A stretch of 64,000 bases of DNA. It comes from Rubidibacter lacunae KORDI 51-2 (GTDB lineage Bacteria > Cyanobacteriota > Cyanobacteriia > Cyanobacteriales > Rubidibacteraceae). Shown piece after piece: positions 1,104 to 8,063 of the stretch. The stretch's first letter is position 1; each line of letters starts with the position of its first letter. The stretch covers positions 62,001 through 126,000 of the forward strand of contig NZ_ASSJ01000079.1 in the NCBI RefSeq assembly GCF_000473895.1. The letters are read 5' to 3'. A program made the translations under genes and the position numbers. Below the pieces are notes generated by a model. That model did no database searches, was not told the origin of the DNA, and saw only the letters and a program-made list of their open reading frames with translations.

Positions 1104-1535
1104 CTACGCAAACTCGTCGATAGCCTGCTCTCTGGGAATCTCCCAGAAGTACTGCACGCCAGAGCGCCATCCGAAATACAGGGCGCGGTTAATCATTCCT
1201 CTGCCCTCGGCAAGCTCGCGCTGAACCAGGGGAATCGCCATCCGGAGGGACTCCAGCTGTTCGGAGCGGCGCAGGTCGGCATCGAGCAGGAGAATCAGCC
1301 CGCCGTGAACTTCGGAGGCTCGGGCGATCGCCTCAAAGTCTTTAACGTTGGCGGTTACCAGAATTCTGTCTTCTTTGTATGCGAGAGCCCAAACTTCGCG
1401 ATCCGAGCGCCCGCAATGCCCGCGATTTCTGATTGAGACCGCGTCAACCAGATCCTCTTCGCAGAGAGTCTGAGCGATGTTGGGAGAGAGGTTCTCGTCG
1501 AGCAGCAGTTTGAGGCTTTCCGTGGCTTCAGGCAC
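1104..1535 (-). CDS. DUF5615 PIN-like protein (putative toxin)
   Basis: A protein of about 143 residues with the DUF5615 pattern: LKLLLDENLSP near the N-terminus, DREVWALAYKEDRILVTANV in the middle, then the acidic GGLILLLDADLR strand. DUF5615 is a PIN-like/Mut7-C-type fold, usually encoded beside a DUF433 protein and regarded as the nuclease-like toxin of a toxin-antitoxin pair. The expected acidic residues (DEN, D in TANVKDF) are present. I favour the GTG start at 1535, which overlaps the end of the DUF433 gene by 8 bases. A TTG at 1565 in the same frame would extend it by 10 residues. The gene looks intact in otherwise decayed DNA. Confidence 0.75.
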   Translation of the reverse strand: MPEATESLKLLLDENLSPNIAQTLCEEDLVDAVSIRNRGHCGRSDREVWALAYKEDRILVTANVKDFEAIARASEVHGGLILLLDADLRRSEQLESLRMAIPLVQRELAEGRGMINRALYFGWRSGVQYFWEIPREQAIDEFA

Positions 1536-1794
1536 GAGGATTGGAGCGGGCGTAGACCTGAGCAAAGCGCAGATCCTGCTCGGACAAGAATGGGTAGTCC
1601 TCTAGAATCTCAGCCTCAGTTGCAGCGTCAGGACTGCGGTCCAGCATGCTACCGATGTGGTAGGCCGTCAGCCGAGAGTTCGGAAAGACTGGCTCGCCGC
1701 CCATTATGCTAGGGTCCTCCGTCAACCCAGCTCTCCAATTCGCGTAGTCAGGGTAGGCTCTGCTCTCAAAACCTTTTGCTTTCGCAGTAACCAT
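1528..1794 (-). CDS. DUF433 protein (putative antitoxin)
   Basis: An 88-residue protein with a DUF433 core: DPSIMGGEPVFPNSRLTAYH followed by an ILEDYPFLSEQDLRFAQVYA helix-turn-helix-like segment. DUF433 proteins are small DNA-binding proteins, typically the antitoxin partner of DUF5615. The ATG at 1794 is chosen because GGAGG lies about 9 bases upstream. The frame stays open further upstream, but that extension has no family similarity. It overlaps the downstream DUF5615 gene, so the two are co-transcribed and probably translationally coupled, with antitoxin first as is usual. Confidence 0.75.
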   Translation of the reverse strand: MVTAKAKGFESRAYPDYANWRAGLTEDPSIMGGEPVFPNSRLTAYHIGSMLDRSPDAATEAEILEDYPFLSEQDLRFAQVYARSNPRA

Positions 1795-1919
1795 GCCGCG
1801 CACCTCCGTAGTGGTGTGCTTCTCGCTCGTACTCCAATCGTACAACCCGCTTGCGAGCACACTCGTTCTCGGTTGGTACTCGCCAGTCTCCGCATTTCCT
1901 GCATAGTTGACCAATTCGC

Positions 1920-2081
1920 AATCGCAACCCCAGGAAAGCGCTTGGCGAGAGTATCACGGCAGTAGTCATCGCACTCGCAGAGCCCGACGAACCGGAACCC
2001 GCCGAGCTGGAGTGCGGCAAACGGGAAGCCCGCACCCACCCCCGAGCAGAGGACGAGCTGGTTCAAAGGTTCTTCCGTCAT
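1920..2081 (-). pseudogene. Cytosine-C5 DNA methyltransferase, N-terminal stub
   Basis: From ATG 2081 the first ~53 residues match the start of a C5-cytosine methyltransferase: QLVLCSGVGAGFPFAALQL (S-adenosylmethionine-binding loop), FVGLCECDDYCRDTLAKRFP, then GVAI. The next expected element, the PCQ catalytic loop, never appears; the frame stays open to 1722 without further similarity. No catalytic cysteine motif, recognition domain or C-terminus follows, so this is a truncated gene. It lies just upstream of the DUF433/DUF5615 pair on the same strand, within the phage-remnant area. Confidence 0.6.
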
Positions 2082-2111
2082 CACCCGTGTTCGGGGCGCG
2101 ATCGCCCGCAT

Positions 2112-2833: not shown

Positions 2834-3244
2834 ATGAAGTTACTGAATCTCGCAGCTGCGGCTGGAGGTGTGGTTGTAGCAGGCATCGGACTTGCCTTCG
2901 CGATCGCCAATCCCGGGCGAGATGCCTATGAGACCTACGCTGTCGAACGCTTGAGCGCGTATCTCAAAGATGAGGTCTGCCAGCAAGTTCCCCAAGTCGG
3001 TCGTGGTTTATGTAGGACTGCCGTAGATTCATCCCAACCTTTGCTGCGCGAGCTTGTTGCCGAGGGTACCGAGCGGCAGAACTTTCTCTTTTTCAGCATC
3101 TATCGCACGGATTTGCAACTCGATGCACTGCTCCCCGACCGTTTCGACCTACCTGGTGGCTATCGAGCTGAAACTGTAGGGGCATTTCAAAATTTCTACA
3201 TCTATGACGTCGGAGAGCAAGGCGATCGCGACGGAGAACGCTAG
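2834..3244 (+). CDS. DUF4359 family protein
   Basis: A 136-residue protein with an N-terminal hydrophobic helix (about residues 4-25, AAAAGGVVVAGIGLAFAIAN) that acts as signal or anchor, followed by a soluble domain beginning NPGRDAYETYAVERLSAYL and containing two cysteine positions (EVCQQV, GLCRTA). This layout matches DUF4359, a cyanobacterial family of unknown function with an exported domain. The segment LFFSIYRTDL is part of the conserved second half. The last codon and stop overlap the convergent pterin dehydratase gene through a shared CTAG. No operon partner on its own strand. Confidence 0.8.
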   Translation: MKLLNLAAAAGGVVVAGIGLAFAIANPGRDAYETYAVERLSAYLKDEVCQQVPQVGRGLCRTAVDSSQPLLRELVAEGTERQNFLFFSIYRTDLQLDALLPDRFDLPGGYRAETVGAFQNFYIYDVGEQGDRDGER

Positions 3245-3519
3245 AGATCCGAGATGGCTGCAGCCATAGCAAAGTCTGCATCGGTGAGACCCCCAGCATC
3301 GTGGGTCGTCAAGGCAATCGTGACCTTGTTGTAAGAAATTGCCAAATCGGGGTGATGTCCAGCGGCTTCAGCCGGCTCGACTAATTTATTCACGAAGGCG
3401 ATCGCCTCAACGAACCCAGCAAATTCTCGCGTACATTCAATCTGGTTTCCATTCAGATGCCAACCAGGACATCGAGCTAGGTTTGCCCGGATGGCTTCAG
3501 TGCAGAGTAGTATCGCCAT
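3241..3519 (-). CDS. phhB: 4a-hydroxytetrahydrobiopterin dehydratase (pterin-4a-carbinolamine dehydratase)
   Basis: A 92-residue protein with the PCD/DCoH signature: GWHLNGNQIECTREFAGF, then EAAGHHPDLAISYNKVTIAL and THDAGGLTDADFAMA. The adjacent histidines (HHPD) and the later TTHD histidine are the catalytic triad of the family, which dehydrates 4a-hydroxytetrahydrobiopterin and recycles the cofactor of pterin-dependent hydroxylases. In cyanobacteria lacking such hydroxylases its role is uncertain. The ATG at 3519 has GGAGGAAG about 8 bases upstream, so the longer open frame to 3573 is not the start. Stop codon is interleaved with that of DUF4359 on the other strand. Confidence 0.92.
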   Translation of the reverse strand: MAILLCTEAIRANLARCPGWHLNGNQIECTREFAGFVEAIAFVNKLVEPAEAAGHHPDLAISYNKVTIALTTHDAGGLTDADFAMAAAISDL

Positions 3520-3728
3520 TATCGACTTCCTCCATACCAGTTTCCGAAAGTTAGGTTGCGTATGGATCGCCACAAACTGCTCGAGGTCAAAGACCTAGTG
3601 GCGCGCTCAGAAACAAACTCGCGGGTGTTGATTTGCCAAGACGTATGCACTTGTAATAAGGGGGAGGAGTCCAGACGCAGCTGGCATGATCCGATGTTGA
3701 AGTGCATGCAAGTTAATCCTAAAACTAT

Positions 3729-3767
3729 CCGCTCCCGCAGCGATACAAAAATCGCTAGCGGGAGCGG
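3729..3767 (-). terminator. Strong GC-rich hairpin, probable terminator of the 23-codon unit
   Basis: CCGCTCCCGC plus AGCGA pairs with TCGCT, a one-base bulge and GCGGGAGCGG around an A-rich loop (3744-3751), about 15 base pairs. On the minus strand it is followed by GATAGTTTTAGG, a weak T-tract; on the plus strand there is none. It lies about 110 bases beyond the stop of the small ORF at 3876-3947, where a transcript end is expected. Confidence 0.5.
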
Positions 3768-3875
3768 TCTAGTCGGGTTGCCTTTGTCAACACCTAACTG
3801 CCGGGAGGATCGCCTGCAGCTCAATTGTTAGATAGACCAGCTATCTCCGATCTCAGAAGAGAAAACAACTTACTG

Positions 3876-3947
3876 CTAGAGAACAGCCCCGACACACAGC
3901 CGGCTCTCGTCAACCAGGAAACCCACAAATTTACTACCACTACCCAT
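3876..3947 (-). CDS. Short ORF (23 aa) with perfect Shine-Dalgarno; product unknown
   Basis: ATG at 3947 opens a 23-codon frame ending in TAG (3876-3878). The peptide begins MGSGSKFVGFLV and ends with a cysteine near RLCVGAVL; it has no clear membrane segment. Directly upstream (3952-3963, minus strand) is AAAGGAGGTGAT, fully complementary to the 3' end of 16S rRNA, with eight bases between AGGAGG and ATG, an optimal spacing that few genes in this window have. A promoter-like pair (3977-4006) precedes it and a hairpin (3729-3767) follows. I recognise no family; a regulatory leader or small peptide are both possible. Confidence 0.45.
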   Translation of the reverse strand: MGSGSKFVGFLVDESRLCVGAVL

Positions 3948-3976
3948 GGGCATCACCTCCTTTACTCCTAAACGGA

Positions 3977-4006
3977 ATTAAAACTCTATTAACTTGCAAG
4001 CATCAA
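3977..4006 (-). promoter_or_regulatory. Candidate sigma-70-type promoter for the 23-codon ORF
   Basis: On the minus strand TTGATG (4006-4001) and TTTAAT (3982-3977) are separated by 18 bases, four and five matches to the -35 and -10 consensus. Transcription would start near 3970, giving a 5' leader of roughly 20 bases that carries the perfect Shine-Dalgarno sequence. Confidence 0.4.
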
Positions 4007-4328
4007 AGCTCGCTGACCGCAAGTTTAACACATCAACCCGATGTGCTCGGCACCCATATCGCGTGAATCTGGATTAATTCGTAGTCTATTAGCCCTTGCC
4101 CTTTCGTGCAATCACGAGAATGCAACTCAGCTTATTGAGAATAAATTCGTCCTTTGTGACTCATGCAGTGCTTCAGTTCCAAATCCCGTCCTAGCCTGGA
4201 ACTCCGCATATTTTTTCCCTTGCTAAGTGGGTGAATACCCGGTAGGGGGATTGAGGAAACTTGACAAAATCGGCATTCTATAAGGGTGTGCTAAGGTTCC
4301 CTGAGACAGATAGTTGAGGACAAAGCTC
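4007..4328. other. Spacer before the nickel operon
   Basis: No supported gene. TTGACA (4261-4266) and TATAAG (4279-4284) precede the operon, but only 12 bases apart, too close for an ordinary promoter. A small GGGT/ACCC hairpin sits near 4229-4240. I find no B12 box and no NikR-type palindrome. Confidence 0.4.
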
Positions 4329-5258: not shown

Positions 5259-5771
5259 ATGAGATGGCATCTTTTACCACTGCTGGCGGCCCCGGTTATC
5301 GGGATAGCAGCCAGTACAACTATCGTGCGGGCTCACGGTTCGGCAATCGACTACCGCCGTGCGGAGGCAATCGAATTGCGCGCTACCTTCGATAGCGGCG
5401 AACCGATGGCCGGTGCGCAAGTAACGGTGTATGCGCCCTACCGTCCCACGGAGCCCTGGCTCAAGGGGACGACAGATGCAGGCGGACGGTTTACATTTTT
5501 GCCCGATCCCAAGCGGGCTGGAAGTTGGGATGTCAAAGTCAGACTGGCCGGACACGGCACTATCGTTAGCATACCGGGAGCCGAAGAAGATGAGGTCACT
5601 ACCCTTGCGCAGACCGAGTGGTCGAGTCATAGCGGGTACACGCCGCTGCAGACAGCTGTAATGGCAGCTGCGGGCATCTGGGGATGCGTTGGCACGGCAC
5701 TGTTTTTCAGTCGCGATCGCCAACCCGGCAATCGCCCTCCGAGCAAACGATCCGAACGCAAGCGAGACTGA
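5259..5771 (+). CDS. NikL-like accessory subunit of nickel/cobalt ECF transporter
   Basis: 170 residues: signal peptide (about 1-25, ending VRA before HGSAID), an Ig-like/transthyretin-like beta domain (GEPMAGAQVTVYAPYRPTEP, TTDAGGRFTFLPD, GSWDVKVRLAGHG) and one C-terminal transmembrane helix (about 130-152) with a short basic tail. This matches the NikL/DUF4198-like accessory components found between nickel ECF transporter genes, which take the place of CbiN. The histidine at the mature N-terminus fits a metal-handling role. Its stop lies five bases before the NikM start, so the genes are tightly coupled. Confidence 0.65.
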   Translation: MRWHLLPLLAAPVIGIAASTTIVRAHGSAIDYRRAEAIELRATFDSGEPMAGAQVTVYAPYRPTEPWLKGTTDAGGRFTFLPDPKRAGSWDVKVRLAGHGTIVSIPGAEEDEVTTLAQTEWSSHSGYTPLQTAVMAAAGIWGCVGTALFFSRDRQPGNRPPSKRSERKRD

Positions 5772-5775
5772 TGCG

Positions 5776-6429
5776 ATGCACGTACCGGACGGACTGCTCC
5801 CTCCCAGCACGGCGATCGCGGGATATGCCATTACCGGTGGCATGACATGGTATTGCCTGCGGAAAATCGAGCGCGGGAACTACCCGAGCGAGAAGATTCC
5901 TAAGGCATCCCTGCTGACTGCAGGATTTTTCGTAGCATCACTCATTCACATACCAATACCGCCAGCAAGCATTCACTTAGTCCTCAACGGCATGATGGGC
6001 GTGACATTAGGGTACTTTGCCTTTCCGGCAGTCCTGGTGGGCTTGTTTTTCCAGACCGTGCTATTCCAGCACGGGGGGCTGTCTACACTTGGGGTTAACA
6101 CAGCCATGATGGGAATTCCCGCGTTGCTAGCCTATGGGTTGTTTCGTTTGCTCGCACGACGGAGCTGCATTCGGCCGGCGCGGGCGATCGCAGCTGGTTT
6201 TTGGGCTGGCTCCTTGGCATTAGCATTGTCGGCAGCGATTTTTTGCACGTTGGTGCTCGCGACCCTGCCAGCAGAAATCGATGCGCAGGCAGAACGCACG
6301 GCCCTGTGGGCAGCCGCCATCGGTTACGGCATCCAAGCCCCGATCGAAGGAGCGTTTACGGCAATGCTGGTCGGCTTCCTACAACGAGTCAAGCCAGAGC
6401 TGTTGGAGGACCGATCGGCGGGAGCCTAG
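5776..6429 (+). CDS. cbiM: Nickel/cobalt ECF transporter substrate-binding subunit (CbiM/NikM)
   Basis: 217 residues, integral membrane S-component. The start is fixed by biology: the mature protein must begin MHVPDG because in NikM the metal is held by the amino group of Met1, His2 and a later histidine. From this ATG that later histidine falls at position 67 (PASIHLVLNG), the same number as in the structurally known NikM2. Other family blocks are present: SLIHIPIPPAS, FQHGGLSTLGVNTAMMG. Longer frames would bury the N-terminus and are wrong. Nickel is likelier than cobalt given the NikL-like neighbour and the ureE/ureF genes elsewhere in the window. Confidence 0.93.
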   Translation: MHVPDGLLPPSTAIAGYAITGGMTWYCLRKIERGNYPSEKIPKASLLTAGFFVASLIHIPIPPASIHLVLNGMMGVTLGYFAFPAVLVGLFFQTVLFQHGGLSTLGVNTAMMGIPALLAYGLFRLLARRSCIRPARAIAAGFWAGSLALALSAAIFCTLVLATLPAEIDAQAERTALWAAAIGYGIQAPIEGAFTAMLVGFLQRVKPELLEDRSAGA

Positions 6430-6438
6430 AGAGAGTCA

Positions 6439-7221
6439 ATGAAACTTGCGCTAGACCGCTATGCCTACCTTTGCTCGCCTATCCATCGCTGGGAACAACG
6501 CTCGAAACTTCTCGCACTTCTGTCACTGATATTTGCATTTGCCTGCGTCCGCCACCTACTCCTCTTGCCAGCGATGGTCGTCGTGACTGCGGGGCTATAT
6601 TGGGCTTCGCGGTTGCCGGTCCGCTACCTGCTAAGGCGCTTGCGCTATCCGGGGCTGTTCATTGCCGCAGCAGTAGCATTGTTGCCGTTTGCGGGCGGCG
6701 AGACGGCGATCGCGCAGTGGGGACCGCTAACCGTTTGGCTAGAAGGGTGTAAGGCTTTGGTGCTAATTGCAGTGCGGTTCGCCTGCATTCTTACAATTAG
6801 CTTAATTTTGTTCGGAACCGCGCCTTTTGCCACCAGTATTAAGGCGATGCGCGCGCTCGGTCTGCCGGCGACCATCGTTGACATGATGTTGCTGACGTAT
6901 CGTTACCTCGACAGCCTTGGCGATACGCGACTGCGGATGCAGCGTGCGATGCAATTGCGCGGTTTCCAGACACACGGGTGGAACTGCAGGACGCTAGCGA
7001 TGCTGGCGTCGCTAGCCGGCAGTTTGCTCGTCCGCAGTTACGAACAGTCCCAGCGAGTTTACTATGCCATGCGGTTGCGCGGTTACGGCAACCCTCATTC
7101 ACGTTTGAGCGTTCCATTCGGTGGCGATGCAAGTGGGCGGCTAGCCTGCGGTATCGTGCTGGCGCTCGCGACGGTTTTTGTGGCAGCCGAATTGCTGTTG
7201 CAGGTTGGCGCTGTGAGCTGA
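6439..7221 (+). CDS. cbiQ: ECF transporter transmembrane subunit CbiQ/NikQ
   Basis: 260 residues with several hydrophobic helices. The coupling-helix motifs for docking ATPases are visible as RMQRAMQLRGF and YYAMRLRGYG, the two A-R-G boxes typical of the EcfT/CbiQ family. N-terminal segment DRYAYLCSPIHRW is also characteristic. It transmits ATPase motion to the NikM substrate subunit. It starts nine bases after the cbiM stop and is followed 50 bases later by the ATPase gene, in operon order M-Q-O. Confidence 0.92.
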   Translation: MKLALDRYAYLCSPIHRWEQRSKLLALLSLIFAFACVRHLLLLPAMVVVTAGLYWASRLPVRYLLRRLRYPGLFIAAAVALLPFAGGETAIAQWGPLTVWLEGCKALVLIAVRFACILTISLILFGTAPFATSIKAMRALGLPATIVDMMLLTYRYLDSLGDTRLRMQRAMQLRGFQTHGWNCRTLAMLASLAGSLLVRSYEQSQRVYYAMRLRGYGNPHSRLSVPFGGDASGRLACGIVLALATVFVAAELLLQVGAVS

Positions 7222-7271
7222 GGCTCGAAGCAGCAAAGCCCATTTTCTGTATGCTTTTCAGGCAAAGAAGA

Positions 7272-8063
7272 ATGACCTCACTGGCTCCTCGACCCTCCCA
7301 AACAATCGAAACCGACGTCAGCAGAGCGTTGGCAGTCGAGCATCTGAGTTTCTGCTATCCCACTGGCAAACAAGTGTTGGATGACATTTTCTTGGAGATT
7401 CGAGCAAACGAGCGCGTCGGGTTGGTGGGACCGAATGGTTCCGGCAAGACCACCTTATTTCTATTGTTATGCGGAGTGTTAGCGGGCGAGGGACTAATCA
7501 GCGTATTCGGCCGACAGGTTATCCCGGGGGAATTCCGCCCGGAGGTGGGGTTGGTGTTTCAGAATCCGGACGACCAGTTGTTTTGCCCGACCGTCCGCGA
7601 TGACGTGGCGTTCGGGCCGCAGAACTTACAACTGGCCACTGAGGAGATCGACCGCCGGGTCCGAGATGCGCTCGCATTAGCAGGCGTGTCGGCGCTAACG
7701 GAACGCGTCCCTCACCAGCTTTCGGGCGGCGAGAAGTGCATGGTGGCGATCGCCGCCGTGTTGGCAATGCAGCCGCAGTTAGTGCTATACGACGAACCGA
7801 GTGCCAATCTGGATTTGCGCGCGCGGCGGCGACTGATCGAATTTCTGCAGTCGGCGCGGCAGTCAATGCTGATTTCGTCCCACGACCTGGAAATGGTCCT
7901 AGAGGTGTGCGATCGTGTCGTGCTTCTCGATGGCGGCCGGATCGTTGCCGATGGCGCGCCGGCAGTCGTACTGGGCAATCGCGCCCTGATGGAAGCACAC
8001 GGATTGGAAAAGCCTCATTCGCTCTCGCCCCATCACCGCGACGCTACTGGCGAGCAGGCCTAG
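7272..8063 (+). CDS. cbiO: ECF transporter ATP-binding subunit CbiO/NikO
   Basis: 263 residues from ATG 7272, which has AAAGAAGA just upstream; an in-frame ATG at 7251 is an alternative. ATPase motifs in order: Walker A GPNGSGKTT, Q-loop VFQNPDDQLF, signature LSGGE, Walker B LVLYDEPSANLD, switch histidine ISSHD. The Q-loop wording is typical for CbiO/EcfA ATPases. It powers uptake by the CbiMQ complex in the plasma membrane. Last gene of the nickel/cobalt operon; no clear terminator follows. Confidence 0.93.
   Translation: MTSLAPRPSQTIETDVSRALAVEHLSFCYPTGKQVLDDIFLEIRANERVGLVGPNGSGKTTLFLLLCGVLAGEGLISVFGRQVIPGEFRPEVGLVFQNPDDQLFCPTVRDDVAFGPQNLQLATEEIDRRVRDALALAGVSALTERVPHQLSGGEKCMVAIAAVLAMQPQLVLYDEPSANLDLRARRRLIEFLQSARQSMLISSHDLEMVLEVCDRVVLLDGGRIVADGAPAVVLGNRALMEAHGLEKPHSLSPHHRDATGEQA

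Follow-up and report, generated by a model that had tools for sequence, protein, structure and literature searches.

On the minus strand of the window, the 64,000-nucleotide stretch of Rubidibacter lacunae KORDI 51-2 DNA that was analysed as a whole, a short open reading frame (ORF) lies between a strong Shine-Dalgarno (SD) sequence and a GC-rich hairpin. As originally predicted, the ORF runs for 23 codons from the ATG at 3947 to a TAG ending at 3876 (3876..3947; MGSGSKFVGFLVDESRLCVGAVL), and its start is well spaced, 8 nt past the GGAGG of the SD sequence; an alternative in-frame ATG at 3953, six bases upstream, would give 25 codons. The SD sequence AAAGGAGGTGAT (3952..3963) had been predicted to match the 16S tail in full, and the match is indeed strong, comprising 11 contiguous bases rather than 12 because the organism's own 16S gene ends in GGATCACCTCCTTATA. 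Its rarity is borne out, since the 12-mer occurs once in the window against 0.12 expected, and an exact-pattern search of the 4.15-Mb assembly also finds it once. The hairpin expected downstream of the ORF, CTA-GA-CCGCTCCCGC / GCGGGAGCGG-A-TAG (3725..3772), is present and is followed by TTTT at 3724-3721, which makes it terminator-like; in addition, the stretch between the stop codon and this hairpin holds a conserved 3' arm (3775..3806, TCCCGGCAGTTAGGTGTTGACAAAGGCAACCC). The pair TTGATG-18-TTTAAT, proposed earlier as the promoter, is not the conserved one. Specifically, a motif TGTG(T/C)TAnnnT occurs upstream in 86 of 112 homologues versus 9 of 114 control stretches, and its counterpart here, the extended -10 box TGTGTTAAACT (4022..4032), is a candidate promoter located just beyond the interval 3729-4006, from which transcription would likely start at approximately 4015. 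The 286-nt RNA folds better than 200 of 200 shuffled sequences (z -3.05).

The element is flanked by a divergent lipoprotein-like gene upstream and a pterin-4a-carbinolamine dehydratase-like ORF (PCD; 3241..3519, minus strand) downstream. Elsewhere in the window, inspection by eye suggests several unrelated features: ORFs resembling a cobalt or nickel ECF transport operon with CbiM-, CbiQ- and CbiO-like members (5689-8063, plus strand), accompanied by a small membrane ORF (5259-5771); an adjacent pair of ORFs resembling DUF5615 (PIN-like) and DUF433 proteins, possibly a toxin-antitoxin module (1104-1914, minus strand); and a short, possibly fragmentary ORF that resembles the N-terminal part of a DNA cytosine methyltransferase (LVLCSGVGAGFPFAALQLGGF; 1722-2111, minus strand).

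Most photosynthetic cyanobacteria carry the RNA, with one copy in each genome. When window positions 3500-4250 are used as a blastn query, 38 of 40 related genomes prove to contain a homologue, which is single-copy in each of them if split hits are set aside, and the matches either stop at the ORF stop codon or extend into a second conserved block downstream. Our own covariance model finds the element in 145 of 386 genomes sampled across the phylum, with one match apiece, and reaches genomes (family f41) that genome size and sequence mark as picocyanobacteria-like, at E values from 1e-11 to 1e-4; in several small genomes of this family, of ~1.6-1.9 Mb, a covariance-model match was not found. 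Additionally, scanning GTDB species genomes with a degenerate pattern yields at least 114 stretches, and among the matches listed all are cyanobacterial records. The sole covariance-model match outside the class (G115/L208, E 2.6e-4) has only the SD region and start codon in common with the element and was rejected.

This element is almost certainly a member of the ncl0160 family, an assignment that we make from described features, which fit closely, rather than from sequence. ncl0160 was first reported in Synechocystis 6803 by Mitschke et al. 2011 (via PMC4734099), and the text of Brenes-Alvarez et al. 2016, covering Nostoc 7120 and 83 strains, describes 83 homologues of a phylum-wide sRNA found, like the element here, in heterocystous and other cyanobacteria (PMC4734099). 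The predicted peptide in that text has 23-25 residues, mostly starts with ATG and is preceded by a ribosome site, in line with the 115 intact copies of our first set, in which all ORFs have 23-25 codons and no premature stop. Stop codons are likewise mostly TAA or TAG, with 47 TAA, 34 TAG and 2 TGA described for ncl0160 (PMC4734099) and 83 TAA, 57 TAG and 1 TGA counted here outside picocyanobacteria. The original statement that the peptide matches no known family holds for Rfam, Pfam and NCBIfam, and falls short in that the element fits a published sRNA. In Rfam 15, there is no match at the gathering score and none up to E=5 for 3680-4040, while the peptide matches no Pfam or NCBIfam profile, the one sub-threshold hit being a HipA N-terminal profile at E 0.15. 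A full-text literature search for the name ncl0160 returns PMC4734099 only, and transcriptome papers on Nodularia and Acaryochloris contain nothing on the element; ncl0160 is a known but barely studied RNA family. The text of PMC4734099 presents one predicted secondary structure and one peptide logo, and in that text we find neither ORF-3'UTR covariation, a start-codon switch, an absence of codon selection, 17-codon forms nor the psbD2 locus. As far as we have found, the covarying stem, the probable start-codon switch and the absent peptide-level selection described below are new.

Four strongly covarying helices join the 3'UTR to the second half of the ORF. The consensus fold that RNAalifold predicts for 43 diverse sequences (alignment A1) has a long-range stem in which ORF codons 8-21 pair with the 3'UTR, and the terminator hairpin comes next. 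In the window, the 5' strand of this stem (helices 1-4) lies at 3887..3924 and the stem comprises 27 pairs with the 3' arm; the window copy keeps most of them, including a compensated GGGUU/AACCC at the start of the stem, where most homologues have GGGUC/GACCC. Across 40 named pairs, 98.0% of cells are paired compared with 91.7% in shuffles, and cells with double changes number 131 compared with 36; when the partner is slid, 26-48% of cells are paired. In helix 2, double changes occur at all eight pairs, and a swap between U-A and A-U divides the sequences 19:18, so that codon 11 encodes Leu or Gln and the change is compensated in the 3'UTR.

The architecture persists in picocyanobacteria, where the sequence is different. 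Their ORF has 17 codons (..QGLLIAENAG) with an ATG or GTG start and a TGA stop, GGGUC/GACCC begins the stem as in the main group, and the C-terminus QGLLIAENAG is nearly invariant at both the RNA and the peptide level. The main-group hairpin contains a GA/A internal loop (CUA-GA-CCGC../..GCGG-A-UAG), and so does the picocyanobacterial one (GGCGA-GA-GCCCCC../..GGGGGC-A-UCGUU). In the loci L192-L207, this 2x1 GA/A loop near the terminator base is common to the main group despite a different sequence, and it may be a protein-binding feature. Separately, a variant group of eight loci (L050, L064, L069, L088, L091, L211, L216 and L219), five of them titled Pseudanabaena or Oscillatoriales, differs by an insertion of nine bases ahead of GGGU and a later deletion of six; its GCUGG/CCAGC pairing is compensated, and its terminator is an ordinary one that lacks the CUAGACCGC motif.

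The first strand of the stem probably acts as a switch, as judged by thermodynamic modelling. The GGGU at 3921..3924, which is invariant in the 47 sequences of alignment A2, has two alternative partners, the 3' arm (helix 1) and the CCCA at the start codon, the latter being part of a GCCCAU at 3946..3951 that forms the other side of a predicted start-codon hairpin. This alternative pairing would explain why the GCCC before the ATG is nearly invariant. We computed both states at 30 C for 99 distinct elements, comparing the full-length RNA with an RNA ending before the 3' arm. In these predictions, the mean probability that GGGU pairs with the 3' arm is 0.90 in the full-length RNA, and that for its pairing with the start region is 0.78 when the arm is missing, in which case the start-codon hairpin is predicted in 94% of elements. 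Accordingly, the predicted mean probability that the start codon is unpaired is 0.56 in the complete RNA and 0.05 without the arm, and the complete RNA has the more open start codon in 95 of 99 elements. The window copy is an exception, its start codon being predicted as mostly closed at full length (0.89). Because GGG has to fit two partners, the start-codon hairpin covaries little, and the case for the switch therefore comes from energy models together with GCCC conservation.

The reading frame is conserved throughout. Homologous loci lacking the frame or the SD sequence had been named as evidence against the original prediction; every homologue examined has the SD sequence and start codon, and every homologue read in the wider set has an intact ORF of 17-25 codons except one. 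The exception, L011 (G018, element 1996-2262), has a 1-nt deletion that frameshifts the peptide and leaves the RNA stem in place; the deletion may be an assembly error, since this draft genome is 86% complete. Of 141 non-picocyanobacterial homologues, 139 have GGAGG 8 nt before the start, and of 138 copies, 137 place GGGU at an offset of 23, 26 or 32 nt from the start, which means that insertions have kept the frame. Stop codons close frame +1 in 70 of 85 copies, frame +2 in all 85 and frame 0 in none, a zero that is partly due to the selection of 23-codon ORFs; as independent evidence, no locus of that set outside L011 has a shorter or broken frame. Codon statistics, on the other hand, reveal no selection at the amino-acid level. 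Substitutions are spread evenly over the three codon positions (133/132/144), and the proposed synonymous/non-synonymous test finds no excess of synonymous changes over control frames, the dN/dS-like ratio, estimated by parsimony on a short-sequence tree rather than with a full codon model, being 0.92 versus 0.93 and 1.17. Our conclusion is that translation itself is conserved and that no selection on the peptide sequence is detectable beyond the RNA constraints; it is the process of translation, more than its product, that selection seems to keep.

These observations bear directly on the strongest alternative, that the element is an ordinary mRNA, encoding a functional micropeptide of 17-25 residues, in which the stem and hairpins serve stability or translational control. 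Conservation of the SD sequence, ATG, stop and frame everywhere is what such an mRNA would display, a peptide consensus (S-S-K)..G....RLCAGAVL can be written, and a peptide was predicted in the text of Brenes-Alvarez et al. 2016 (PMC4734099). By segment, codons 2-8 have a dN/dS-like ratio of 1.7 and codons 9-23 one of 0.68, which leaves room for some peptide constraint in the latter. However, third-position bias is absent overall, codons 2, 7 and 13 undergo radical changes, the peptide belongs to no Pfam or NCBIfam family, and three lineages (L209, L212 and L214) terminate at codon 18 with the RNA kept, thereby losing codons 18-23, while L209 and L214 retain beyond that stop the nucleotides GUUCUC that encode V-L elsewhere. 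We therefore regard a micropeptide as unlikely, and of the two possibilities raised in the original prediction, an undescribed small protein fares worse than a translated regulatory RNA, which accommodates a phylum-wide SD sequence, start, frame and stop together with a covarying RNA structure.

The genomic setting addresses a second alternative, namely that the element is a cis-acting leader, or 'actuaton', in which translation of the ORF controls read-through into a neighbour such as PCD, a porin gene, a photolyase gene or cysK. The element often sits between psbD2 and PCD or a porin gene. Among 157 loci, 73 have a psbD (D2) gene upstream in the same orientation, and in 46 the contig ends within 700 nt upstream, 42 of these with a psbD fragment at that end, as expected because a duplicated gene breaks assemblies. 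Genes downstream on the same strand are PCD in 60 loci, porin in 81 (partly further away) and cysK in 29. Some picocyanobacterial loci retain the psbD-element-porin arrangement, and other lineages have cobB or glmU before the element and photolyase after it. Leader-peptide attenuators such as tnaC and trpL likewise couple translation of a short ORF to alternative structures and a terminator, and the frequent same-strand PCD and porin genes would suit a leader of this kind. Moreover, 'actuatons' composed of an sRNA plus a gene have been described in Synechocystis (PMC5386190). Nevertheless, the constant downstream gene that an attenuator would have is absent: the neighbour changes from lineage to lineage while the element does not, the next gene is usually hundreds of bases off (median ~380 nt for PCD and ~1160 nt for porin), and four loci (L028, L036, L037 and L044) are followed by an ORF of opposite orientation. 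A cis-acting role is thus improbable. Least probable is a non-coding RNA that binds 30S subunits through its near-perfect SD sequence, as a decoy or a ribosome-tethered RNA with an incidental ORF, for which the exceptional, genome-unique 12-mer and a conservation reaching past the needs of an SD sequence (GGUGAUGCCC) speak, but which needs neither the start codon, the in-frame indels nor the stop, all of which are kept, including by TAA/TAG exchange.

Several known systems resemble the element in part. SgrS/SgrT, RNAIII/hld and PhrS are dual-function sRNAs that likewise carry a short SD-led ORF on a structured RNA of regulatory size; unlike in these RNAs, the ORF here is itself one strand of the conserved stem. 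The hok-type type I toxin mRNAs, which encode a hydrophobic toxic peptide and are countered by an antisense RNA gene, also combine a metastable 5' hairpin during transcription, a long-range pairing of the 3' end and a short ORF. In contrast to them, the peptide here is variable and non-hydrophobic, not forming a membrane helix by inspection, the element is found in one copy per genome phylum-wide, and its start codon is predicted to open rather than close when the RNA is completed. Yfr6 of Prochlorococcus resembles the element as a ~240-nt structured RNA with a short possible ORF; this ORF has 33 codons from nucleotide 97, and Yfr6 lies beside nrdJ-trnS or purK in MED4 and SS120 only (PMC1242208). 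Identity with Yfr6 was rejected on ORF length and locus, and for PmgR1/Ncr0700 and Norf1 the literature gives no sign of identity.

Taken together, these findings lead us to favour, with a chance of being right that falls not far short of even, the reading that the element is a translated regulatory RNA in which what selection maintains is the link between translation and RNA folding. It would be a single-copy, independently transcribed and translated RNA of ~290 nt in the ncl0160 family. Early in transcription, folding predictions suggest that the invariant GGGU would sit on the CCC beside the start codon and hide the start. Once the 3' arm is made, its GACCC (AACCC in the window copy) would capture GGGU, and the long stem would then join the second half of the ORF to the 3'UTR, leaving the strong SD sequence and the start codon more accessible. 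An initiating ribosome would have to melt this stem, so that the 3' arm (GUUCCUUCC/CCUCCCGGCAGUC..) would be exposed for as long as the ORF is occupied, and the RNA could thereby report or act on translation. Most likely, the exposed arm would pair with other RNAs or feed back on its own SD sequence, although that exposure of the arm is the active step, and that it has any target, we infer only indirectly. In a more specific form, which we put forward tentatively and consider somewhat unlikely to hold in full, a translation-gated switch would be ancestral to most photosynthetic cyanobacteria: the ORF would serve as a ribosome-operated latch, translation rather than the peptide would open the ORF-3'UTR stem to release a regulatory arm, and the mutually exclusive start-codon hairpin would delay translation until the RNA is complete.

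A single-copy RNA that is retained through most crown cyanobacteria, often beside the photosystem II gene psbD2, is unlikely to be dispensable. If translation rather than the peptide is what selection maintains, this family would be a clear example in nature of an RNA operated by ribosomes, and it would caution against reading every conserved small ORF as the gene of a functional micropeptide.
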